Source: a virus
Direction: 5' to 3' (one strand)
Virus record (IMG/VR): IMGVR_UViG_3300030329_002635
Span: 1-22,937 of that record
Length of the DNA: 22,937 nucleotides
In this document: positions 4,525 to 19,813 of the stretch, piece after piece
How the letters are laid out: each line of letters opens with the position of its first letter
Position numbering within the stretch: position 1 is the stretch's first letter
Position numbers and translations under genes: made by a program
The notes under the pieces: model-generated
What the model saw: the letters and a program-made list of their open reading frames with translations, nothing else
The model's database searches: none
Told to the model about the DNA's origin: nothing

Positions 4525-4712
4525 TGTTACAGAAGCTCGTTATAAACAAGATTATAGATTTACTATCTAAGCAGTTTAAGCTCTTTGATGTATTAAAGTA
4601 TGTCAAGGAGCCTAACGAGCTTGACCGTAAGGTTAAGCAGCTTGAGAGAAGAATTAAGAAGTTAGAGGCGATAGATTATGATTTGTACTTAAGGAAAGGA
4701 AGTGATGAGTAA
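4524..4712 (+). CDS. Small coiled-coil protein, unknown function
   Basis: A 62-residue product with an N-terminal amphipathic region (LVINKIIDLLSKQFKLFDVL) and a charged helical segment, 'ELDRKVKQLERRIKKLEAI', with clear leucine heptads typical of a short coiled coil. The start shares one base with the previous stop (TAATG). It is the last of the small-gene run and overlaps the following appendage gene by a few bases. The coiled coil suggests oligomerisation. No enzymatic motif is present and the family is not recognised. Confidence 0.6.
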   Translation: MLQKLVINKIIDLLSKQFKLFDVLKYVKEPNELDRKVKQLERRIKKLEAIDYDLYLRKGSDE

Positions 4713-6132
4713 ATCAATTACTATAGATAACACTTTAGATTCTAACTTAAAACCATTAAAGATAGACAATAAGCTAACTGGCATTGAATTATCTGATGAT
4801 GAATTAGCTATAAGAAATGAAACAAAATTTGATAAAAACTTATCTCTTGCTGGAGCAATTAAATTTGAGCAAGAAGATGCAGGAATAAATTTTGGCAATC
4901 AATTATCTTTAAGTGTAGATACCTCACTTGAGAGATTGCAATTTTATGGCACACAGATGATGATATCAGGAAGTTTATTTGCTAACCATGCTGATACTGA
5001 TGTAAAGTTATTACTTATACCTGATGGCACAGGTGATTCCACTATTACATTTTATGAAGATAATGTTTCAGCAAGATTTGCTATAGGGCATGATGCAACT
5101 GATACCACTTTTCAAATAGTTTCAGGCACTACAATGGGAACAAACACACTATTATCAATGGCTCAGACAGGTGCTAAAACATTTAATTGTACAGATGGTA
5201 ATACAGATTTAAAACTTACAAGCTCTGCCAACACTAATGATTATTGTTCAATAACAGTTGGAGCAGAAGGTGCTACTACTATAGCTACAGTTGATGCTGA
5301 TACTGCTGCTGCCAACTTAACTGTTGATGTTGATGGAGATATAACCTTAGATGCTGATGGTGGAGAGATTTATTTAAAAGATGGTGGAACTACATTTGGA
5401 GTACTAACTACTGCATCAAGCAGGTCAACATTACAGCTTTATGAATCAGCAGGTTCTTCAACTGATGATTATGTTTATATTCAATGTCAAGCAAGTGGCT
5501 CTACTAAATTTGTTACTAATGATGCAGCTGGTGCAGATGCAGAGTTAGAAATAAAGCCTGATGGAGATTTAACAATAGATGCACAAGGTGATATAAGCTT
5601 AGATACAAATTCAGGGAATTTTATAGCTAAAAAAGCAGGAACAGAATTTAGTGTAGCAAATAGTGCTTATGCTGGAATGATACTTGGGTATCAAATGATT
5701 GGTGAGAGTGCAGTTCATGGCTCTTATACATTTACAACATCTTATGCAGTTCCTGATTCAGCTATGAATGTTAAGTTTGTAGCTCCTCCAAGTGGTGTAG
5801 TTGAGATAGCAGTTCAATTTGGAATAGATGGTAGCTCAAATAGATATAACTATATAGGTTTATCTGATAATGCTACATACAATTCAATAGGAAATAGTTA
5901 TGAAGTAGCAGTTAATTTAACAGATGAATCAGACCAAAATACAATACACCATATTTGGGTTGTTACAGGATTAACAGCAGGAACAGCATATCAGTATTGG
6001 TTGGGAGCAAAATCAAGTCATGCTTCAGGCTATATAAGATGGGGTGGAACAGCATCAGGAAGGTATCAGGATTTTATTATGAAAGCAGTTGCATTACCAG
6101 CAGCAACAACAGATTATGCAGTATATGATTAA
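4705..6132 (+). CDS. Appendage protein, probable tail or head fiber
   Basis: A 475-residue protein built of short beta-strand units rich in Asp, Gly, Thr and Ala, such as 'VDVDGDITLDADGGEIYLKD', echoed later by 'KPDGDLTIDAQGDISLD'. Such D-G-D repeats mark beta-helical or stacked fiber shafts in many aquatic phages. The C-terminal part from about residue 325 changes character, with more aromatic residues ('IRWGGTASGRYQDF'), as expected of a globular tip that could bind the host. ATG 4705 follows AAGGAAAGGA and is preferred to GTG 4702. CpG is absent throughout, and Arg is encoded only by AGA or AGG, unlike neighbouring genes. The fiber role is inferred from composition and repeats. Confidence 0.6.
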   Translation: MSKSITIDNTLDSNLKPLKIDNKLTGIELSDDELAIRNETKFDKNLSLAGAIKFEQEDAGINFGNQLSLSVDTSLERLQFYGTQMMISGSLFANHADTDVKLLLIPDGTGDSTITFYEDNVSARFAIGHDATDTTFQIVSGTTMGTNTLLSMAQTGAKTFNCTDGNTDLKLTSSANTNDYCSITVGAEGATTIATVDADTAAANLTVDVDGDITLDADGGEIYLKDGGTTFGVLTTASSRSTLQLYESAGSSTDDYVYIQCQASGSTKFVTNDAAGADAELEIKPDGDLTIDAQGDISLDTNSGNFIAKKAGTEFSVANSAYAGMILGYQMIGESAVHGSYTFTTSYAVPDSAMNVKFVAPPSGVVEIAVQFGIDGSSNRYNYIGLSDNATYNSIGNSYEVAVNLTDESDQNTIHHIWVVTGLTAGTAYQYWLGAKSSHASGYIRWGGTASGRYQDFIMKAVALPAATTDYAVYD

Positions 6133-9990: not shown

Positions 9991-10173
9991 ATGAAAATAA
10001 AGCTAAAAAATCCACAAGCTCTTCCTAACGCTTGGAAAGGCTGTGGAATGACAATAGAAGAGTGGAAGGATTTAGAGGCAGGTAAAACTGTTGATGTTAA
10101 ATCTATTCCAGAATTAATTAAAGATAAAATAGATGTTGTTGGGTCAGCATCAAAAAAGAAAGGAGATAAATAA
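9991..10173 (+). CDS. Small protein between tail terminator and tail tube genes, unknown function
   Basis: A 60-residue product with an excellent ribosome binding site (AAGGAGG) before ATG 9991 and a stop that overlaps the next start. It begins MKIKLKNPQALPNAWKGC and ends with a basic tail (SASKKKGDK) that also contains the tail tube gene's ribosome binding site. The central part (EEWKDLEAGKTVDVKSIPEL) looks like a small folded domain. Short genes at this position occur in many siphophages and may act in tail assembly, but no function can be stated. Confidence 0.65.
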   Translation: MKIKLKNPQALPNAWKGCGMTIEEWKDLEAGKTVDVKSIPELIKDKIDVVGSASKKKGDK

Positions 10174-11174
10174 TGGCAACAGTAGCACACACGTTTTCTC
10201 CCAAAGAGTTTAAATGTTTCGTTATATCTGATGCGACCAACGCAGGTACTTCGGGAATACACTCATCTAATATGCAACAGCTTGATGTTGATTCGGTGTC
10301 ATATCCGTCACTTAATGTCAATCAAGTTCTTGATGTTAGAAGCGGTGTAGGGCATACTCTTAAGGATGAAGATTTTTTTCAAGACAATAAAATGAGAGTG
10401 GTTGAATTAAGCTTATCAGGCACATTACACGATGATGCAGGACACAGACTGCTTTTAGCTAATATTTGTGGAGCAGCTCAAGCAGACGACACGAATCAAA
10501 CTATTGCAAGCGGACATAAGATAGTGGCTCAAAAATATGGTGCAGCAGTAACAAATAACGCATCATCTTTAACTATCGTAATACAACCATCAGATGTTTC
10601 TAATCAAACAGGGTTAGAATTTCCAGGCTGTGTGGTTACCAATTTCTCAATTTCGGCTGATGCAGGAACAGAAGGGGGAAGATATAAATGGTCTGCCACC
10701 TTACAGTCAGGGAAAACGCCTGACTTATCATCTACTGCTGCCGCTGGAAGCACCGTGTACGCAAACACTACAGGAACAACTTTGGCTTCAGCAAGTGGGG
10801 TGAAAGTTTTTGCTCTTGATGCAGTATTAAATAGCTTTACCACTACAATAGATTATCCTGCTGTATTTACAGGGATAACATCAACAGGATATGAAGTTGT
10901 AAGCAGAGGATCCGAATGTTCTGTTACTCACGACTGTCAAGTCAAGTATGATGGAAACACTAAAGGTTTGGTGAACTCATTTGATACTCAAACAGCAGCA
11001 TTAGCAGAAAATATGTTTATTATTACAAATAATGGTAAATTTGGCATAGATACAGCAAATGGTGTATTGACCAACGTAGCTTATTCAGAAGGCGACATTA
11101 TGATGCTTGACTGTTCGATTAAAGCAGTAGATGACGGGACTGATGAATTACTTATTGTTGATTTAAGTGATTAA
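10173..11174 (+). CDS. Major tail tube protein
   Basis: A 333-residue, beta-rich, Thr/Ser/Ala-rich product in the canonical position between the tail terminator and the tail chaperones. It would polymerise as rings into the siphovirus tail tube. Notable segments are 'SVSYPSLNVNQVLDVRSGVG' near the start, 'RVVELSLSGTLHDDAGHRLL' at about 70-90 and 'SISADAGTEGGRYKWSATLQ' at about 155-175. These paired strands are typical of tube proteins that recognise the tape measure. It has a strong AAGGAG site. At 333 residues it is longer than the minimal tube fold of about 200, so it may carry an added surface domain. Assigned by position and composition. Confidence 0.7.
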   Translation: MATVAHTFSPKEFKCFVISDATNAGTSGIHSSNMQQLDVDSVSYPSLNVNQVLDVRSGVGHTLKDEDFFQDNKMRVVELSLSGTLHDDAGHRLLLANICGAAQADDTNQTIASGHKIVAQKYGAAVTNNASSLTIVIQPSDVSNQTGLEFPGCVVTNFSISADAGTEGGRYKWSATLQSGKTPDLSSTAAAGSTVYANTTGTTLASASGVKVFALDAVLNSFTTTIDYPAVFTGITSTGYEVVSRGSECSVTHDCQVKYDGNTKGLVNSFDTQTAALAENMFIITNNGKFGIDTANGVLTNVAYSEGDIMMLDCSIKAVDDGTDELLIVDLSD

Positions 11175-11483: not shown

Positions 11484-11917
11484 AACTTAATATACTTGGG
11501 TCTCCTTGTGGGGGCTGTCAGTATCATAGTTTTCCATATTCGGCTGAAATACCAGTCTTGATAGATGGGAAGCGAGAAAAAAGAACTTTTAAATGTAAAG
11601 AAGATGTTTTAGAGGTAATAGATCTAATTATCGCTGAAACCAAACAAGTAAACGAAGAGCAAGGAAAGGATTTTGATATTGCTCAATCAGTTGTATCTCA
11701 GATGCCTTTCTTTGCCTGTATGAACATCTTTTTTGACAATAAAATACAGAAAGATATACAAAGGTATATTTACTGTGAAAAGTTCGGAATACCGCCATAT
11801 AAAGGCTCTTATGGTGAGCAACCTGCAAAATGGGTTTCAAGAGCATTTGCAATTAAATCTGCTTTCGCAAAGAAAGAAAAAAGGGAAATAGATAATGTCA
11901 GAAAGAATACTAATTAA
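11459..11917 (+). CDS. Tail assembly chaperone T extension, expressed as G-T by -1 frameshift
   Basis: This frame has no good ATG start. It is open from just after a TGA at 11456-11458 and is in the -1 frame relative to chaperone G. A shift on GAG GGG GAA would join 88 residues of G to 151 residues of T, giving a G-T protein of about 239 residues. The extension begins GREALQVELNILGSPCGGCQ, with a CxxC followed by His, and ends with basic helices (AFAKKEKREIDN). It overlaps the tape measure start by 23 bases. G/G-T pairs made by -1 frameshift are conserved in siphophages. An internal TTG at 11558 is not needed as a start. Confidence 0.7.
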   Translation, partial: GGREALQVELNILGSPCGGCQYHSFPYSAEIPVLIDGKREKRTFKCKEDVLEVIDLIIAETKQVNEEQGKDFDIAQSVVSQMPFFACMNIFFDNKIQKDIQRYIYCEKFGIPPYKGSYGEQPAKWVSRAFAIKSAFAKKEKREIDNVRKNTN

Positions 11918-13814
11918 ATTTACATCCAAAGGCGATAAAAGATTATATAATTCTATATTAAGATTAGCCGCTGCTCAAGCTACATTAACGGGCGACTCTA
12001 AAAAACTTGATGCGGCAATAAGCAAACTTACAGCATCTCAAAAAAAATTAGGAAGGCGAAACAGATTATTAGATAATACTTTTGCCACATTACGTTCTAA
12101 AATGCTGCTTTTCTCTTTTGCTATGTCTCTTGGTGGTAGGCAATTAATAGCATTTGGTAAAAAGGCTGCACAAGTTGAATCTATGTCAAGAGCCTTTGCA
12201 ATGCTTTCTGGTGGTACTGAAGCCGCTACAACAGCAATAGATAAATTAAGAGAAGCCACAAACAACACAATGTCTGATTTTGATTTATTCCAGCAAGCGA
12301 ACAACGCTATGATTCTTGGTGTTAGTAAAAACTCAGATGAAATGGCTGAAATGTTTGATGTTGCTCAAAGATTGGGGCGTGCATTAGGAAGAGACACTCG
12401 TTCGTCTGTTGAGTCGCTTATTACTGGTATTGGTCGTCAATCTCGCCTTATGCTTGATAATATTGGTATTATTGTAAAATCAAGTGATGCTTATGAAAAA
12501 TTTGCAGCAAACATTGGGAAAACAGCCGAATCCTTAACAGATGCCGAGAAAAAACAAGCGTTTTTAAATGCCGCATTAGATGCGGGGAGAAGCACAATAG
12601 CCTTGTTTGGTGATGAAGTCACTAATAACCAAGATACTTTTGACAAGTTTTCAGCATCAATGGATAATTTAAGCGTCAGAGTTGGAAATGTCGTGAATGA
12701 CGGTATGGAGCCTCTTTTAAAGGCAATTTCTGACCTTGCAGACTCAGTAACTGAGGAAGGCTTAGAAAGCTTCATGGAGTTTTTAAGTAAAGGTATTTCT
12801 GATAATTTTACAAAAACTTTGCTTCAGTTTATGGCTGTTTCCTCTAAAGCTAACAGACAAGAAAGAGAGCAAGATAAACATGAGGTTGACGCTGCTGCGA
12901 GAAGAGTTGCTAAAATACAGGCTTTAAAAACAATTAATAAAGAAGAGTTGCAGAGGAATATAATTAATTTAGAGTTTACTGAAACGGTTGATCGTCAAGG
13001 CAAAAAAGCTCGTGAATTAACAGACATTGAAAGAGAGCTGCTAAGGGTATCAAAAGAATATTTCCAGGTCTTAGGAGATTCAAGCTTAACCTATGAAGAA
13101 TTTATAGCAATAGAAGACAAGCTAAACAAGTCCTTTACAGAGACAAATATTTCAAGGGAAAGAAATTTAAATAATATTTTAAAAGAAATGGATCTTCTGC
13201 CTTCCTATATGAAGCAAACAGAGGAATATCAAGCAGTATTACAAAATTTAAATAGTCAGCTTACAAATCTTGACCCAACCTTTAAGGCTACTAATAGTCA
13301 GGTAAACGCATTAGCTTCAGCTTTTACAAGTGCGGCTATGGCTGGTGACCATTTAGGAAGATCTGTTGAGAAAGCCATGAAACAAATAATAGCAACTTTT
13401 GCTGCTAACCAAATTGTATTCTCTGTTTTAACTAATATTTTCGGCTTTGGGGGGCTGCAAGCTCCAACACTTTTTGGAAAGACTTTAAAAAACCTGTTTG
13501 GGCATCAAGGCGGTCAGGTTCAAGGTTATGCAACAGGCGGGATTATCCCTCCTTTAGGGATGCCTTCATACCAAAGTGGTGGGAGTGTTGACAACGTGCC
13601 TGCAATGCTTCAAGAAGGCGAATATGTTATGAGAAGAAGTGCTGTGCAATCTATAGGCATTGAGAACTTAAACAGAATGAACAGAACAGGACAATCAGGT
13701 GGGGTTAATATTTCATTTACAGGGAATGTATTAAGCGATGATTTTATAACTAATGAAGCCATACCAAAAATTAAAACAGCGATTAGAAGAGGTGCTGATT
13801 TAGGTATATCATGA
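11895..13814 (+). CDS. Tail tape measure protein
   Basis: A 639-residue, mostly helical protein that sets tail length and later passes through the tube at infection. The N-terminal region contains coiled-coil-like Lys/Ala/Leu stretches ('SKLTASQKKLGRRNRLLDNT'). Hydrophobic segments lie near residues 70-90 and 480-530. The C-terminus has the pattern typical of tape measures: 'GYATGGIIPPLGMPSYQSGG', then 'VPAMLQEGEYVMRRSAV'. At about 0.15 nm per residue the tail would be near 95 nm. It starts inside the end of the T frame and its stop overlaps the next start (ATGA). No lytic transglycosylase or peptidase motif was noticed. Confidence 0.88.
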   Translation: MSERILIKFTSKGDKRLYNSILRLAAAQATLTGDSKKLDAAISKLTASQKKLGRRNRLLDNTFATLRSKMLLFSFAMSLGGRQLIAFGKKAAQVESMSRAFAMLSGGTEAATTAIDKLREATNNTMSDFDLFQQANNAMILGVSKNSDEMAEMFDVAQRLGRALGRDTRSSVESLITGIGRQSRLMLDNIGIIVKSSDAYEKFAANIGKTAESLTDAEKKQAFLNAALDAGRSTIALFGDEVTNNQDTFDKFSASMDNLSVRVGNVVNDGMEPLLKAISDLADSVTEEGLESFMEFLSKGISDNFTKTLLQFMAVSSKANRQEREQDKHEVDAAARRVAKIQALKTINKEELQRNIINLEFTETVDRQGKKARELTDIERELLRVSKEYFQVLGDSSLTYEEFIAIEDKLNKSFTETNISRERNLNNILKEMDLLPSYMKQTEEYQAVLQNLNSQLTNLDPTFKATNSQVNALASAFTSAAMAGDHLGRSVEKAMKQIIATFAANQIVFSVLTNIFGFGGLQAPTLFGKTLKNLFGHQGGQVQGYATGGIIPPLGMPSYQSGGSVDNVPAMLQEGEYVMRRSAVQSIGIENLNRMNRTGQSGGVNISFTGNVLSDDFITNEAIPKIKTAIRRGADLGIS

Positions 13815-15706
13815 TAAATCTTCCTGAGAAATTTCAAAGAGATATACAGAGCAAAAGTACATTTCTTGTACCTTTAATTGTTATTGATGACAGAATATTT
13901 TTATCAACATCTAAAGTTACCCTTGATGGCAAGAATTACGATCCTTTAGTTGAATCTTTAGGAAGTATAAGTGAATCAATAGATATAGAGAAAAGAAAGC
14001 CAAGAATATCAAGCACTTCTTTAAAACTTTTTAATTCAGAGTATAGAAACTCTACTTTATCTGAAAAAATGTTCTCACCCTCTGTTATGAACTCAGAACT
14101 AAAGATATACATCAAATCTCAATCTGCTCAAACATTAGATGATTGCCTAAATATATTTAATGGTAATGTTGTAGATATTAAAGGGAACAATAAAAGAATA
14201 GACTTAACTGTTGAAGATATATCTGAAGAAATATTGGGCATTGATTTGCCGAAAATTTATGTTGACGAAGAACAAGGATTGCCAGAGCAGCACAACAATA
14301 AATTTATACCTTTTGTATATGGGGTTGTAAATAAAGCTCCTTGTGTATATAAAGGGATATTTAAGTTCTCAAAATATTACAGCGATCAATACTCAATAAG
14401 CCCTGATTCTTGGTACTTAAAAAATGTTTCAAATCCTTATGTTTTTGCCGATAACGAGTATATGCTTATAAACGCTGATTCAAAAGCCTCTCTAACTGAT
14501 ACAATTTATGAAAACCCTATTGAATTACAGTACAAAATATTCCCCTACTCAAACGAAATACATATAGATAAAACTTTGGCTACTCCAGACCAAATTTTAG
14601 ATACTGAAATTGCTCCAAATATGCGAGGAAGCTTACCGTCTTATAATTTAGTGCAAGTAACTCATGTGGGGGATGTTACTTTTGATAAAAGTTATCATGT
14701 GTTAAGAACTCGAAAGGTTGGAGAAGATTCAAGCGAATTTAACACCTTTCCAATAAATTCTTTTGAAAATTGGATGGTGGGGGCTGAAAACAAAACCAAA
14801 CCCCCTTTTGTAGTGAGGCTTTCAGATAATGCAGATGTTAATACGGGAGCAATATCGTACATGATGCCTCTTGCCGCTGACGAAGACCCAGATAACGACT
14901 ATTACCCTATTTTATGGGGGGTTAATAGTGAAGGAAGGCAATTAGACCAATCCTTTGATTGGGATGGCTCTCATGGGGAATGTCTTTTACAGTTTTTATC
15001 TACGCCAATTTGTAGTGAAAGCAAAATTTTAACAGAGGCTGATAACATTAACCCTGATGAACAAAGCGTTCCTGTAAAAGGGTCTGCTCGTATAGAGTTT
15101 TCAATGTATGCTTGGGTGGCACAGCATTATAATGATGGGGCGTTCCCTAAAATGCACTTTATTTACGATGAAAAAAGCAACTTAATGTGGGATATGCACC
15201 AGGAATCTGAGGGGCTTTCAACTGGTGGGGCATTTCACAAGATTCCACAAAACGATGCCTTACATACCCATGAATCACATACTGGTGAAATCGGGGTTAT
15301 AGGGGTGTCAACATCTAATATTGCTTCTAATAAATTTGCTTTGTCAAACAGAATGAGAAACTCATTAAATGAGGGTTTTATAAACGATAACTCAGGGCAA
15401 GGGTTTATTTGGGATTTTACATTTGAGCATATAGCGTTTAAAAGAATTTTTATAATGAAAGATTTTACAACCTACGATATATATGCAGATGTCTTAGGGA
15501 GGGTTGATACTATTGATGGTAAATATACTTCAAACAGAGAGGTTAGAAGTTTGCAAGAAAGAGCCTTCCCTTCAGAGGGGCAAAGAGGGGTGTATAAAAC
15601 CTCTGTAACAAAGCCTATATCAAAGCCCGTTAGAAAGCCTATAAAAAAACCTATAAGAAAGCCTATAAAGAAAATTATTAAAACAAAAACAAAGGCTAAA
15701 TACTAA
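13811..15706 (+). CDS. Tail-tip protein with basic Lys-Pro C-terminus
   Basis: A 631-residue product directly downstream of the tape measure, the place of distal tail and baseplate proteins. Residues 1-130 (LVPLIVIDDRIFLSTSKVTL, then 'IEKRKPRISSTSLKLFNSEY') look like the beta domain that opens many tail-tip proteins. The middle contains 'NNKFIPFVYGVVNKAPCVYK', often seen in such proteins. The last 35 residues are a basic repeat of Lys-Pro-Ile/Val-Arg/Lys units (KPISKPVRKPIKKPIRKPIK) ending in TKAKY. The start overlaps the tape measure stop and the stop shares one base with the next ATG. The Lys-Pro tail echoes that of the gene at 1522-1695. Confidence 0.6.
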   Translation: MINLPEKFQRDIQSKSTFLVPLIVIDDRIFLSTSKVTLDGKNYDPLVESLGSISESIDIEKRKPRISSTSLKLFNSEYRNSTLSEKMFSPSVMNSELKIYIKSQSAQTLDDCLNIFNGNVVDIKGNNKRIDLTVEDISEEILGIDLPKIYVDEEQGLPEQHNNKFIPFVYGVVNKAPCVYKGIFKFSKYYSDQYSISPDSWYLKNVSNPYVFADNEYMLINADSKASLTDTIYENPIELQYKIFPYSNEIHIDKTLATPDQILDTEIAPNMRGSLPSYNLVQVTHVGDVTFDKSYHVLRTRKVGEDSSEFNTFPINSFENWMVGAENKTKPPFVVRLSDNADVNTGAISYMMPLAADEDPDNDYYPILWGVNSEGRQLDQSFDWDGSHGECLLQFLSTPICSESKILTEADNINPDEQSVPVKGSARIEFSMYAWVAQHYNDGAFPKMHFIYDEKSNLMWDMHQESEGLSTGGAFHKIPQNDALHTHESHTGEIGVIGVSTSNIASNKFALSNRMRNSLNEGFINDNSGQGFIWDFTFEHIAFKRIFIMKDFTTYDIYADVLGRVDTIDGKYTSNREVRSLQERAFPSEGQRGVYKTSVTKPISKPVRKPIKKPIRKPIKKIIKTKTKAKY

Positions 15707-18285
15707 TGGCAAATTTAATTTGGAAACCTTTAACCCAATCTATTGACCCTCAAAAACCATTTAGGTTTATTATAGAATTGGACACTCAAGATCCTTTTGA
15801 AGATGATCCAAATGGCTTACTGTTTAAGCAATGGATAGAAGCTGGTGAACCCCAAGGGAATGGTCTTGTTATCGATGAGATGATTTATTCTTTAGGGTAT
15901 GGGCATCAAAATTGGGGGAACGCCGAGTGGATGTCTTGGTTTTCTTCGGCAGAAGTAACAACTGACCCTAATGGGGTTTTACCAGGCGGGCAAAATGAGA
16001 ACCATCTTGAATCTCTTGGTGATGTAGGGGTAATAACATCTTGGCACTTAGATAAACTACCATATCTTAATAAAGTTTGGGAGAACAATAAATTTGAAGG
16101 GGTCTTTCACGACAACAATACTACTTATGGAGGATTTTTTGACCCAGCAGACCCACAGTCTATTTACTTAGAAAGCGATTCTCGTGCTATTGCAACTATT
16201 AGTCGGCAAAGGCTTGGTCTGTTAAACCAAAATGGTAATATAGTTGCCAATGATGGTTACGGTATTAATATCAACAACGCAACAGCAATAGCTTTGGACT
16301 ACTTTTACGGAGAGACTCCTTGGCAACATGATTCTACCATGAATATAAATCCTGAGAATGTTGATGGGTACACTATACTGTTTAGTTTAAAATTAAAATT
16401 CTTATCTAATTATGTGCATGGGCAAGGAACATCGGCTAACAATAATGTTGTTTTTTATATTGACTCTGCTGCACGTGCAGATATAGAAGACTCTACTCAA
16501 GATGTAAGCTATCATTCTGAAGATGCAATGATTCCTGGTACAAACATTGATAGTGGGCTTGACAATTATTATTCAACAGCTGTAACAAAACACGCTTTTC
16601 TTCCTATTAAATACGGGGGAGTACAAGACCTTATGATTTATGGGGATGTTGTTAGCTCTCCAAATTTTGCTATCGAAGGCATACCCTCTGTAATAAATTT
16701 ATCAATCCAATCTTTTGAATATACAGGTTATGTAGATATATTTGTTATCTCCTCTGAGGATACTCAAGCAATAGATTCTTTTAATCATCCATCAATAGAG
16801 TTAGGAGAGCAGCATATCGCACAATATGGAACATTCCAAATAGAGGGTCAAGAGCAACAAGGGTCAGGTCAAATATTTTTAAACAGAGACGAACTAAAGC
16901 AAGTAACAATATTTTATAGCCCTAATTATGTAAACGCAAACCAAACGGATACATTTGCAATATTTCTAAGGAAATCAGAACCTTCTTTTCACTTATATCC
17001 TGAAGATATGCAGGAAGAAATTACTAATATTTGGAATGAGACTTATAATGAGGAAAACTTATGGACTAATTTTCAAATTTTCTCGATTCAGATATTAGAC
17101 ATTTTAGATGAAGATGCCCAATTAACATTAGATGCTTTAGATTACAATCCTTCTTTTGAAACTCTTATTACAAAACCATCTGATATAATTTATCATATAT
17201 TAGGCGTAGAGTGTGGTTATATTGGAGAAGTAGATCAGGAATCTATATTAGAATCCAGAGAGCAACATAGTCAGATAGGGTTAGATTGGGATTTAGCTTT
17301 TTCTGTTAACCAAGAAATTCAATGTAAAAAGCTTATACAAGAAATATCCCAATCATCAAAATCTATTCCTATTTTATCTAACAATATTCTAAAGTTTATA
17401 AATATTAAAAATACATACGATGGTAGCGAGGAAATGCAACTTATTAATGCAAGAGATGTTATAAATTATAACTTTAAAAGAACTCCTATAGATAAGGTTT
17501 TGACTCGTGTAGAAGTTAAACATACCTTTGATTATGGGAGGGGTAATTATTTAAATTCTACAGACAGTATATCTGTTTCAGAGAATCATTTAGATGGTTA
17601 TTTTATCACAGGAACTTACAAGGATTATGTAGATAGAAATATTGAAATGCACAATTACTATAGATTTAAAGAAAACCCTCAAACAGGAGAGTTATTGCAC
17701 TCTACAAGTTATTTAATCACAGAGAATAACTATATAAGAGATGAGGGTGTCGCTAATCAGTTGGCAAAGTTTTTGTTGCTATGGAATTGTAATCAGCACA
17801 ATATTGTAGAGCTTACTTTACCTTTAAAATACTATGCCCTTCAAACTGGAGACTTGATTGAGTTTGACGAAATGATTTATGGAGAAAAGGCTTATAATGA
17901 AAATTATGTTCTTGACAGCCCAGATGATATGCCTATTAGATGTGGGCAATATATATTACCTTTGTTTATGGTTACAGAGACCACTAAGGGCTTGAGCAAT
18001 GTTAAAATAAAGGCGATACAAATGCACCACATGGAAGATACTCCTTTAACCTATAAGGGCAACACATACGAAGATGTTTCGGCTCAATATTTAACGAACA
18101 GTATGTCAGGAGATGCTTCTTTAAATTACGAAGTTAATGTAGGTGATGTTGTTTTAATGATAAAGCATATATTAGGAGAAATTACTTTAGAGGGGCAAGC
18201 ACTTTTAAATGCAGATATGACCAATGACGGTGAAGTTAGGATAAATGATGTCGTATTAGTTATTGCCAAAATATTAGAGGAATAA
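15706..18285 (+). CDS. Large tail-tip protein with C-terminal dockerin-like module
   Basis: An 859-residue protein. The central part, about 480-720, has the look of a tail hub or gpJ-like protein: 'DIIYHILGVECGYIGEVD', 'SVNQEIQCKKLIQEISQS' and 'TPIDKVLTRVEVKHTFDYGR'. The last 58 residues form two calcium-loop repeats each followed by a helix. Loop 1 is DASLNYEVNVGD with helix VVLMIKHILGE; loop 2 is DMTNDGEVRIND with helix VVLVIAKILEE. Asp, Asn/Thr and Asp sit at positions 1, 3, 5 and 12, as in type I dockerin modules. In cellulosomes these bind cohesins; on a phage tail the partner is unknown. It overlaps the previous gene by one base. Confidence 0.7.
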   Translation: MANLIWKPLTQSIDPQKPFRFIIELDTQDPFEDDPNGLLFKQWIEAGEPQGNGLVIDEMIYSLGYGHQNWGNAEWMSWFSSAEVTTDPNGVLPGGQNENHLESLGDVGVITSWHLDKLPYLNKVWENNKFEGVFHDNNTTYGGFFDPADPQSIYLESDSRAIATISRQRLGLLNQNGNIVANDGYGININNATAIALDYFYGETPWQHDSTMNINPENVDGYTILFSLKLKFLSNYVHGQGTSANNNVVFYIDSAARADIEDSTQDVSYHSEDAMIPGTNIDSGLDNYYSTAVTKHAFLPIKYGGVQDLMIYGDVVSSPNFAIEGIPSVINLSIQSFEYTGYVDIFVISSEDTQAIDSFNHPSIELGEQHIAQYGTFQIEGQEQQGSGQIFLNRDELKQVTIFYSPNYVNANQTDTFAIFLRKSEPSFHLYPEDMQEEITNIWNETYNEENLWTNFQIFSIQILDILDEDAQLTLDALDYNPSFETLITKPSDIIYHILGVECGYIGEVDQESILESREQHSQIGLDWDLAFSVNQEIQCKKLIQEISQSSKSIPILSNNILKFINIKNTYDGSEEMQLINARDVINYNFKRTPIDKVLTRVEVKHTFDYGRGNYLNSTDSISVSENHLDGYFITGTYKDYVDRNIEMHNYYRFKENPQTGELLHSTSYLITENNYIRDEGVANQLAKFLLLWNCNQHNIVELTLPLKYYALQTGDLIEFDEMIYGEKAYNENYVLDSPDDMPIRCGQYILPLFMVTETTKGLSNVKIKAIQMHHMEDTPLTYKGNTYEDVSAQYLTNSMSGDASLNYEVNVGDVVLMIKHILGEITLEGQALLNADMTNDGEVRINDVVLVIAKILEE

Positions 18286-18286
18286 G

Positions 18287-18718
18287 ATGAAGGATAAAAT
18301 AAACAGAGCAAACAAACCAATAGCAACGCAAGGTAAACTTATTTATGGAAGAGGAGATGTTATCTTTCAAACTAACGGAGAGGTTGCTGCTTTTGAAATC
18401 GATTACTCTGGTCTAATTCAAGGGGTAAAAAAGCTTGGAGATGGATGGACTATTAGATTTGGGAAGAATAAAATTATTATATTTAGCTTAGCACAAACAG
18501 AACTATCTGAGCTTTTGTTTACTTATGTTGGAGACTTAGAAATATCTAAGTGCAACTTTGTTACATGGAATAATAAGTCACATTCAGCCTCAGTCGTTTT
18601 TGAAGGGAGAAGTTCTTGGAGAGTTAATCGTGGATCGTGGGGTTCAGATGCGAGAAAATATGAAGAAATAAAAGACCCAAGCCTCCCACAGGCTACGGTA
18701 AGAAAATCAACTATTTAG
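18287..18718 (+). CDS. Tail-associated protein, unknown function
   Basis: A 143-residue, beta-rich product following the large tail-tip gene with one base between stop and start. GAGGAAT upstream serves as ribosome binding site. Recognisable features are only general: an N-terminal basic segment (DKINRANKPIATQGK), strands such as 'GDVIFQTNGEVAAFEIDYSG' and 'GWTIRFGKNKIIIFSL', and a basic C-terminus. There is no membrane segment. Its place in the tail operon suggests a minor tail or tip component, but the family is not recognised. Confidence 0.6.
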   Translation: MKDKINRANKPIATQGKLIYGRGDVIFQTNGEVAAFEIDYSGLIQGVKKLGDGWTIRFGKNKIIIFSLAQTELSELLFTYVGDLEISKCNFVTWNNKSHSASVVFEGRSSWRVNRGSWGSDARKYEEIKDPSLPQATVRKSTI

Positions 18719-18727
18719 GAGTTAAGT

Positions 18728-19813
18728 ATGGCAAAAAGAAGTATAGGGAAATGTAGGTTTTACGCAGACTATCCAAGCTATTTAAAATCATTAGGATATT
18801 ATAAAGGAACATTTGCACAGGGATTCAAAGATGAGGTTTCTGATGAAAGTGTAGAAGATGTGTTTAATATGAACCCTTCGCAACCTGTCAGCTTACCGCT
18901 TGATTATAATGGCTCTGTTGATTCTTTTAAAATAGGGATAAAAATACAAGACCAAAACGAGGATCCAAACATTCAATTAACACAGTTATTAAAACAAACA
19001 AATTACGCAGGACTATTGGGGCATAATTTAGCTAATATGGTGGGCGTGGCTGATGAATATGAGAATGTTGGTCTCAGGTTGATGATTGATGGGTTTTACG
19101 GTGAAAATAATAATGAATCAACTAAAATAGTTAATTTTAAGGATGTTGATTATAATGGTTATTCATTGTGGGAAACAGGTGCCTTCACTTCTGACGACCC
19201 CTCTTATTATAAGAATATTAGTATTTACTCTATATATCAAGCTGCTGAATCAGCAGTAGATTACAATCTTAAATTAGGAGCATTTACTTTCGGAAGATAT
19301 TTCGAGCCAAGCCATTCCCCAGATTTAAGCGTAAAGCTAATAAAATCTTATGAAGGAGTTGATGTGCAGACAACATTAGGGGGAAGCACTATAACTAACT
19401 TTAATCACTTAGGACAGCCAATGTGGGGAGATTTGCCAGCTTGGACATTAGAAAAGCAAAAAGGGCATGATTATAATGTAGGGGCAGACAGAGGAAGAAG
19501 AACTTGGCAAGTTAGTTTTAGCTATTTATCCGATACCGATATATTTAACACAGCTACCAATGAAAATAAGCTTTTTACATGGACAGATACATCAATAAGC
19601 GATAGTGGCGATAGAGAATATCAATTTGACACATCTATGGCAAGCTTTTTCTTGTTAACTCATAACGGAAATTTAAGATTTATCTTCTGTCCAAATACTG
19701 ATCTTAAGAATAAAGAGTTTGCTTTGTGTATGATTGACCAAGATTCTCTTACCTACACTCAAGTAGCACATCGTACTTGGAATGTGTCTATGAATATAAT
19801 GGAAGTTTGGTAA
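18728..19813 (+). CDS. Tail-associated structural protein, last gene of the rightward operon
   Basis: A 361-residue product with an AGGAG site before ATG 18728. It is rich in aromatic residues and Asp/Asn, mostly strands, with segments such as 'CRFYADYPSYLKSLGYYKGT', 'GRYFEPSHSPDLSVKLIKSY' and a C-terminal 'VAHRTWNVSMNIMEVW'. A segment like 'GRRTWQVSFSYLSDTDIF' is typical of distal tail or adhesion proteins that pack beta sandwiches. The stop codon touches the stop of the convergent operon without a gap. The role is inferred from operon position; a distal tail or fiber attachment protein is possible. Confidence 0.55.
   Translation: MAKRSIGKCRFYADYPSYLKSLGYYKGTFAQGFKDEVSDESVEDVFNMNPSQPVSLPLDYNGSVDSFKIGIKIQDQNEDPNIQLTQLLKQTNYAGLLGHNLANMVGVADEYENVGLRLMIDGFYGENNNESTKIVNFKDVDYNGYSLWETGAFTSDDPSYYKNISIYSIYQAAESAVDYNLKLGAFTFGRYFEPSHSPDLSVKLIKSYEGVDVQTTLGGSTITNFNHLGQPMWGDLPAWTLEKQKGHDYNVGADRGRRTWQVSFSYLSDTDIFNTATNENKLFTWTDTSISDSGDREYQFDTSMASFFLLTHNGNLRFIFCPNTDLKNKEFALCMIDQDSLTYTQVAHRTWNVSMNIMEVW

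Follow-up and report, generated by a model that had tools for sequence, protein, structure and literature searches.

We analysed a stretch of viral DNA of 22,937 bases, the whole of which we call the window (IMG/VR record IMGVR_UViG_3300030329_002635). Its gene order is siphovirus-like: capsid, lysozyme, tail tube, tape measure, an upstream tip protein, the hub, ds1 and ds2. The features are the following:

325-1458: major capsid protein (phrog_267)
1750-2247: lysozyme
10173-11174: tail tube (PF18906)
11895..13814, + strand: tape-measure protein (phrog_3779, E 1.6e-15)
13811..15706, + strand: upstream tip protein, in one ORF with the hub in many relatives (e.g. G001, G004, G013)
15706..18285, + strand: very likely the central tail hub protein, with dockerin, 859 aa (ORF; gpJ fold of the C-terminal half; PF13550 in relatives; 3' of the tape-measure gene)
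17170..18048, + strand: gpJ-like hub domain, aa 489-781, 293 residues (alignment; AF2 model; VIA Z 16.7 to 8iyk_F)
18109..18282, + strand: dockerin type I domain, aa 802-859 (PF00404 35.6 bits; VIA Z 12.0 to 2ccl_B)
18112..18147, + strand: putative calcium loop 1, D803, S805, N807, N811, D814 (sequence; conserved in relatives)
18148..18180, + strand: dockerin helix 1, VVLMIKHILGE (sequence; AF2 helix, model residues 324-334)
18214..18249, + strand: putative calcium loop 2, D837, T839, D841, D848 (sequence; conserved in relatives)
18250..18282, + strand: dockerin helix 3, VVLVIAKILEE (sequence; AF2 helix, model residues 358-368)
18287..18718, + strand: ds1, 143 aa, a candidate, possibly cohesin-like partner (conserved next gene; fusions; predicted fold of a relative's ds1; no cohesin profile match)
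18728..19813, + strand: ds2, 361 aa, a fast-evolving tip-cassette protein (conserved in the cassette; dN/dS 0.34; holds the dockerin in L112)

The upstream protein and the hub, which are two ORFs in the window (13811-18285), are encoded together in many relatives, by one ORF of about 1,000-1,600 aa. In the window, the upstream protein closes with a Lys/Pro-rich tail (15612-15706; KPVRKPIKKPIRKPIKKIIKTKTKAKY), and basic tails ending in KY or GGY also close many ds1 homologues.

The C-terminal end of the hub ORF is GDASLNYEVNVGDVVLMIKHILGEITLEGQALLNADMTNDGEVRINDVVLVIAKILEE; residue 802 begins at 18109. Tandem calcium loops are found there, with ligands D-S-N..D and D-T-D..D at positions 1, 3, 5 and 12. 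Loop 1 reads D803-A-S805-L-N807-Y-E-V-N811-V-G-D814 (18112-18147) and loop 2 reads D837-M-T839-N-D841-G-E-V-R-I-N-D848 (18214-18249), each being followed by a hydrophobic helix (VVLMIKHILGE and VVLVIAKILEE). Loop 1 carries a tyrosine in place of the usual Gly6, which makes loop 2 the more typical one. With a gathering cut-off of 22.9 bits, Pfam PF00404 (Dockerin_1) scores 30.6 bits against the whole hub ORF (E 3.9e-7) and 35.6 bits against its C-terminal 74 aa (E 1.1e-8). A dockerin profile made from relatives only, with the window excluded, gives 51.6 bits on the window segment and matches no other ORF of the window. Since the best of 5,000 same-residue shuffles of the segment reached only 15.0 bits with this profile, the match is not a product of chance.

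The structure of hub residues 489-859 was predicted with AlphaFold2 from a 26-sequence alignment (mean pLDDT 89.1). The three dockerin helices are present in the model, with pLDDT of about 83-94, and model residues 311-371 align with 2ccl_B at a VIA Z of 12.0 and an rmsd of 1.2 Å over 61 residues. Solved dockerins superpose on the model at 1.1-1.2 Å over 56-61 residues, and the solved sequences nearest to the segment are cellulosomal dockerins. By profile and by predicted fold, the last 58 residues of the hub are a genuine type I dockerin; that they bind calcium and a cohesin is inferred.

The carrier of this domain was identified by its fold. The hub domain aligns with residues 270-613 of the lambda tail tip protein gpJ (8iyk_F) at a VIA Z of 16.7 over 244 residues, and Foldseek matches it to the tail-tip hubs of lambda, T1, Chi and JBD30, with E down to 3.0e-11. 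Sequence identity of the hub domain is 32-37% among the first five members. Pfam Phage-tail_3 (PF13550) matches 6/26 relatives (best E 2.7e-7) and does not match the window protein itself. In lambda gpJ, two FNIII domains come after the hub domains, and then a central fibre and a receptor-binding domain (PMC10721106); the window chain ends in the dockerin about 20 residues past the hub domain. Given the gpJ fold, the 859-aa protein is therefore very likely a tail-tip hub in which the dockerin stands in place of the distal fibre and receptor-binding region, its location at the virion tip being inferred.

The earlier note, made from the sequence alone, had placed a dockerin-like calcium module at the end of a tail protein, at 18109-18285. 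This held, coordinates included, by profile and by fold. Its two loops with ligands at positions 1, 3, 5 and 12, each with a hydrophobic helix, also held, though loop 1 lacks Gly6. So did the type I dockerin layout: the PF00404 search was above cut-off, and neither of the outcomes named as refuting it (a predicted structure without paired EF-hand-like loops, or no match to dockerin profiles) occurred. The structure prediction that it proposed as a check returned the paired-loop dockerin fold, calcium binding itself remaining an inference. Finally, its assignment of the carrier as a tail-tip protein held, as the preceding domain is a lambda-gpJ-type hub.

The dockerin is not peculiar to the window. 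A search with the major capsid protein returned 18 relatives; four relatives were found to encode the hub, and all four also match the dockerin. An alignment of five hub domains reached 98 relatives in viral contigs, 80 of which were kept, and PF00404 matched at E <= 0.01 in 73 of these 80 records. Once truncated ends had been removed and the set clustered at 95% identity, 61 non-redundant hub cassettes remained, 57 of them with a dockerin; the proportion is 35/39 when clustering is done at 60% and 18/22 at 50%. In a separate scan made with a dockerin alignment, this hub accounts for 54 of the 79 viral dockerin loci examined, and ds1 was detected alongside in 52 of the 54; this set partly overlaps the hub-based one, some contigs being identical. 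The dockerin is thus conserved as a trait across a large uncultured group of tailed phages. The putative calcium ligands are its most conserved positions and are near-invariant among 48 non-redundant dockerins, with D1 and D12 present in 43/43 and 47/47 for loop 1, and in 47/48 and 48/48 for loop 2.

The position of the domain is less rigid than its ligands. In 54 of the 57 cases the dockerin is on the C-terminal side of the hub domain within one ORF, with at most 45 residues left to the C-terminus in 50. It is found on the N-terminal side of the hub domain in L064, as a protein of its own (217 aa) encoded between hub and ds1 in L035 (G015/L035), and inside ds2 in L112; these displaced dockerins always stay within the tip cassette. 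That the dockerin moves within the cassette but never out of it supports a docking role, as would be fitting for a portable plug. Some hubs have two tandem dockerin-like stretches, and four non-redundant hubs have retained ds1 but lack a detectable dockerin.

Two loci deserve a separate description. L158 (18-3671 and 4314-6128) has dockerins in both the hub (1155-1212) and ds2 (230-284). The dockerin-less hub of L073 (5989-7896) ends in another C-terminal domain (...QRWNLISG...YGFINGEY...AYWIRAS...) with no Pfam match, and the ds1 of the same locus has about 107 additional N-terminal residues.

We also compared the rates at which the cassette parts evolve. Over 26 close pairs, the hub domain has a dN/dS of 0.15, ds1 of 0.20, ds2 of 0.34 and the dockerin of 0.37, the last two being the fastest-evolving parts of the cassette. 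The dockerin is under purifying selection, yet it changes faster than its carrier. Its radical changes in close pairs fall at the exposed positions 7, 15, 18 and 19, none affecting the calcium ligands or the hydrophobic stripe at positions 10, 14 and 17. In known cohesin-dockerin complexes, the residues before Asp12 are key recognition positions (PMC5141474, PMC5301203); these are positions 10-11 in our numbering and 11-12 in that of the cellulosome literature. In the relatives they are V/I followed mostly by L, hydrophobic, conserved and similar in both repeats; the window has V-G and I-N. Both differ from the C. thermocellum dockerin, whose first repeat has Ser-Thr before Asp12, and positions 10-11 here are nearer to the hydrophobic type-II style than to Ser-Thr. 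Beyond what the hub explains, dockerin distance does not track ds1 distance (partial r 0.05). With ds2 distance it covaries weakly, the partial r being 0.16 overall and 0.31 in the window clade (p 0.001), these partial Mantel tests being inflated by shared ancestry.

The product of the next gene, ds1, is the candidate socket. The ds1 gene comes directly after the hub gene at almost every locus (median gap -1 base), and in L063 and L076 ds1 is fused to hub and dockerin in one ORF. Its fold is taken from one model only, that of the ds1 part of the L076 fusion and not of the window's own ds1. This part, mostly above pLDDT 90, is predicted to be a beta-sandwich. Cohesins occupy ranks 1-4 of its Foldseek matches, with a non-cellulosomal cohesin at the top, and make up most of its 20 best structural matches. 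The VIA Z is 8.9 to 2jh2 (2jh2_C, rmsd 2.8 Å, 95 residues) and 8.8 to 6kgc.

This resemblance must be read with care. At 8.9, the Z to cohesins is only modest and is near the value that the top hit usually reaches when a model has no clear match; the PDB is rich in cohesins, and rival matches come near in Z, with a GH20 N-terminal domain at 8.4 (within 1) and CBM2-like domains. The model of the L076 natural fusion (pTM 0.60) shows no dockerin-ds1 interface. The cohesin profile PF00963 gives no score above its cut-off in the window or in the records searched, ds1 from the window and from relatives giving no match at all, and a profile-profile comparison of ds1 with six clostridial cohesins was negative. 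The link between ds1 and cohesins is therefore one of fold resemblance only. It is possible, is predicted by a model for one relative, and leaves binding of the dockerin as an inference. The search for a cohesin-like fold among the other phage proteins, which the earlier note had suggested, was thus met in part: no profile match above cut-off was found in the window or its relatives, and in one relative a cohesin-like fold is predicted for the protein whose coding sequence comes next after the dockerin.

Another candidate cohesin, a head-region beta-sandwich protein of G094, scored 18.0 bits, under the cut-off of 24.1, and was rejected as a generic beta-sandwich. In some ds1 homologues (L099:8022-8648, L106:7791-8459), the C-terminus is extended by a stretch that contains a conserved FHIH...MSG-like motif.

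Dockerins were also observed on other proteins in viral contigs. In L131 (106-1272), L175 (4017-5273) and L188 (4074-5411), the encoded protein combines a lipoprotein-like start, a trypsin domain (PF00089, E down to 7e-61) and, at its C-terminal end, a dockerin. In L145, L153, L169, L190, L191 and L192, the dockerin forms an ORF of its own (118-119 aa), which adjoins a protease-like ORF in the two that were inspected, L145 and L190. An arylsulfotransferase-like protein (PF05935) of L136 (3921-5165) also has a C-terminal dockerin (49.6 bits).

The earlier note had offered three roles for the module, namely attachment of another protein, binding of a cell-surface partner and stiffening by calcium, and the evidence does not settle the choice among them. 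We propose the first. In this reading, two calcium ions would fix a two-helix plug at the end of the hub. The plug would bind a beta-sandwich socket on another protein, and a further tip component would thereby be attached to the hub non-covalently. The most likely socket would be ds1, with its predicted cohesin-like fold. We give a probability of roughly 0.5 to this reading, in which a calcium-dependent dockerin plug links the hub with a second tip protein, ds1 being the likeliest. Shown computationally are the sequence and predicted fold of the dockerin, the hub fold, the conservation of the domain and its ligands, the gene order, the hub-dockerin-ds1 fusions and the predicted fold of one ds1; calcium binding, presence at the virion tip, docking and partnership with ds1 are inferred. 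The case for ds1 as the partner is weakened because four hubs keep ds1 without a dockerin and because dockerin divergence does not track that of ds1. A bolder version, which we hold only tentatively and would not favour on present evidence, is that of a virus-encoded cohesin-dockerin joint internal to the tail tip, in which ds1 would be a diverged cohesin socket bearing further tip or receptor-binding parts.

The main rival is a serious one and remains possible: at adsorption, the dockerin would plug into a cohesin-like surface module of the host, whose own dockerin-cohesin display it would exploit or imitate. In its favour, the dockerin occupies the place of the lambda gpJ fibre and receptor-binding domain, and it evolves fast (dN/dS 0.37 against 0.15 for the hub), with exposed radical changes and fixed ligands. 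Moreover, C-terminal dockerins are carried by trypsin-like proteases and an arylsulfotransferase-like protein encoded on other viral contigs; some virus hosts therefore probably use dockerins outside the cell. Against it, the dN/dS of the dockerin is below 1, and the conserved ds1, with its predicted cohesin-like fold, and the two natural fusions suggest an internal partner.

An end-cap role, in which the dockerin would only stiffen the end of the hub through calcium, or lock its trimer, without any specific partner, appears unlikely. It is consistent with the C-terminal position of the domain in most members and with calcium ligands that are the most conserved positions in loops that tolerate divergence elsewhere. 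However, a plain cap would need neither to relocate within the cassette, as in L064, L112 and L035, nor to keep position 10, before Asp12, hydrophobic. Docking to ds2 or to a ds2-borne element, with ds1 as a separate structural protein, is very unlikely: dockerin distance covaries with that of ds2 beyond the hub, the L112 dockerin is inside ds2 and L158 has dockerins in both proteins, but the covariation rests on partial Mantel tests inflated by shared ancestry, and near-identical ds2 proteins go with diverged dockerins (L050/L051, 96% against 67% identity; L086/L089, 98% against 73%).

The host was not identified, since the hub alignment found no match in 84,980 bacterial and archaeal genomes and terminase similarity was too broad. 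Neither the 859-aa protein nor the dockerin segment, ds2 or the upstream protein, each searched singly, gave relatives in viral contigs, and the 859-aa protein had none in genome contigs or isolated phages. Isolated phage records hold no related hub and PHROGs no family that matches it. Dockerin queries against 50,697 phage records matched only unannotated faecal contigs. Relatives that are 54% identical exist in UniProt, where an automatic dockerin label is possible. The literature searched mentions gene 40 of Vibrio phage VvAW1 as dockerin-like (PMC3558961), a carbohydrate-binding region modelled structurally in HSE2 (PMC5967307) and bacterial dockerins (PMC9377139), and describes no dockerin borne by a phage tail. 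Thus, the dockerin domain itself is known, and the hub-dockerin architecture is likely to be unreported.

Bacteria use dockerins to assemble cellulose-degrading machines, and cohesin-dockerin pairs, among the tightest non-covalent protein joints, have been studied almost only in cellulosomes. If the docking reading is true, such a joint would be used to build or aim a virus particle, and a simple biochemical test would be at hand of how fibre-less hubs attach their adhesion parts. Surface cohesins would be a possible type of receptor for phages with unidentified hosts, and the phages may be a viral source of new orthogonal docking pairs.

Among known systems, the hub shares with the central tail hubs of lambda (gpJ) and T5 (pb3) the fold of the hub domain and the position in the tail-gene order, and differs from them in that its hub domain is not followed by FNIII domains, a central fibre or a receptor-binding domain. 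With the type I dockerin (PF00404; C. thermocellum Xyn10B, 1OHZ/2CCL), the segment has in common two calcium-loop repeats, three helices, a length of about 60 residues, a C-terminal position, a profile score above cut-off and an rmsd of 1.1-1.2 Å. The difference lies in the carrier, a phage tail hub here and secreted enzymes in the known cases. A cellulosome component would be a secreted enzyme, or a scaffoldin with cohesin repeats in the same system; a tail hub does not qualify. The comparison of ds1 with cohesins (PF00963) rests on a predicted beta-sandwich in a relative, best structural matches that are cohesins and a dockerin encoded beside it, whereas about 95 residues are aligned out of about 140 and there is no similarity in sequence or profile. 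Finally, contig L174 (IMGVR_UViG_3300017963_000283) differs in being an unrelated virus with separate small proteins, a dockerin with a signal-peptide-like start and a hub without a dockerin; as in the cassette described here, a dockerin is encoded close to a putative partner, a Pfam-level cohesin (PF00963, 32.0 bits, cut-off 24.1) whose gene overlaps that of the dockerin (47 bits), the two genes (4668-5844) lying shortly 3' of the hub gene.
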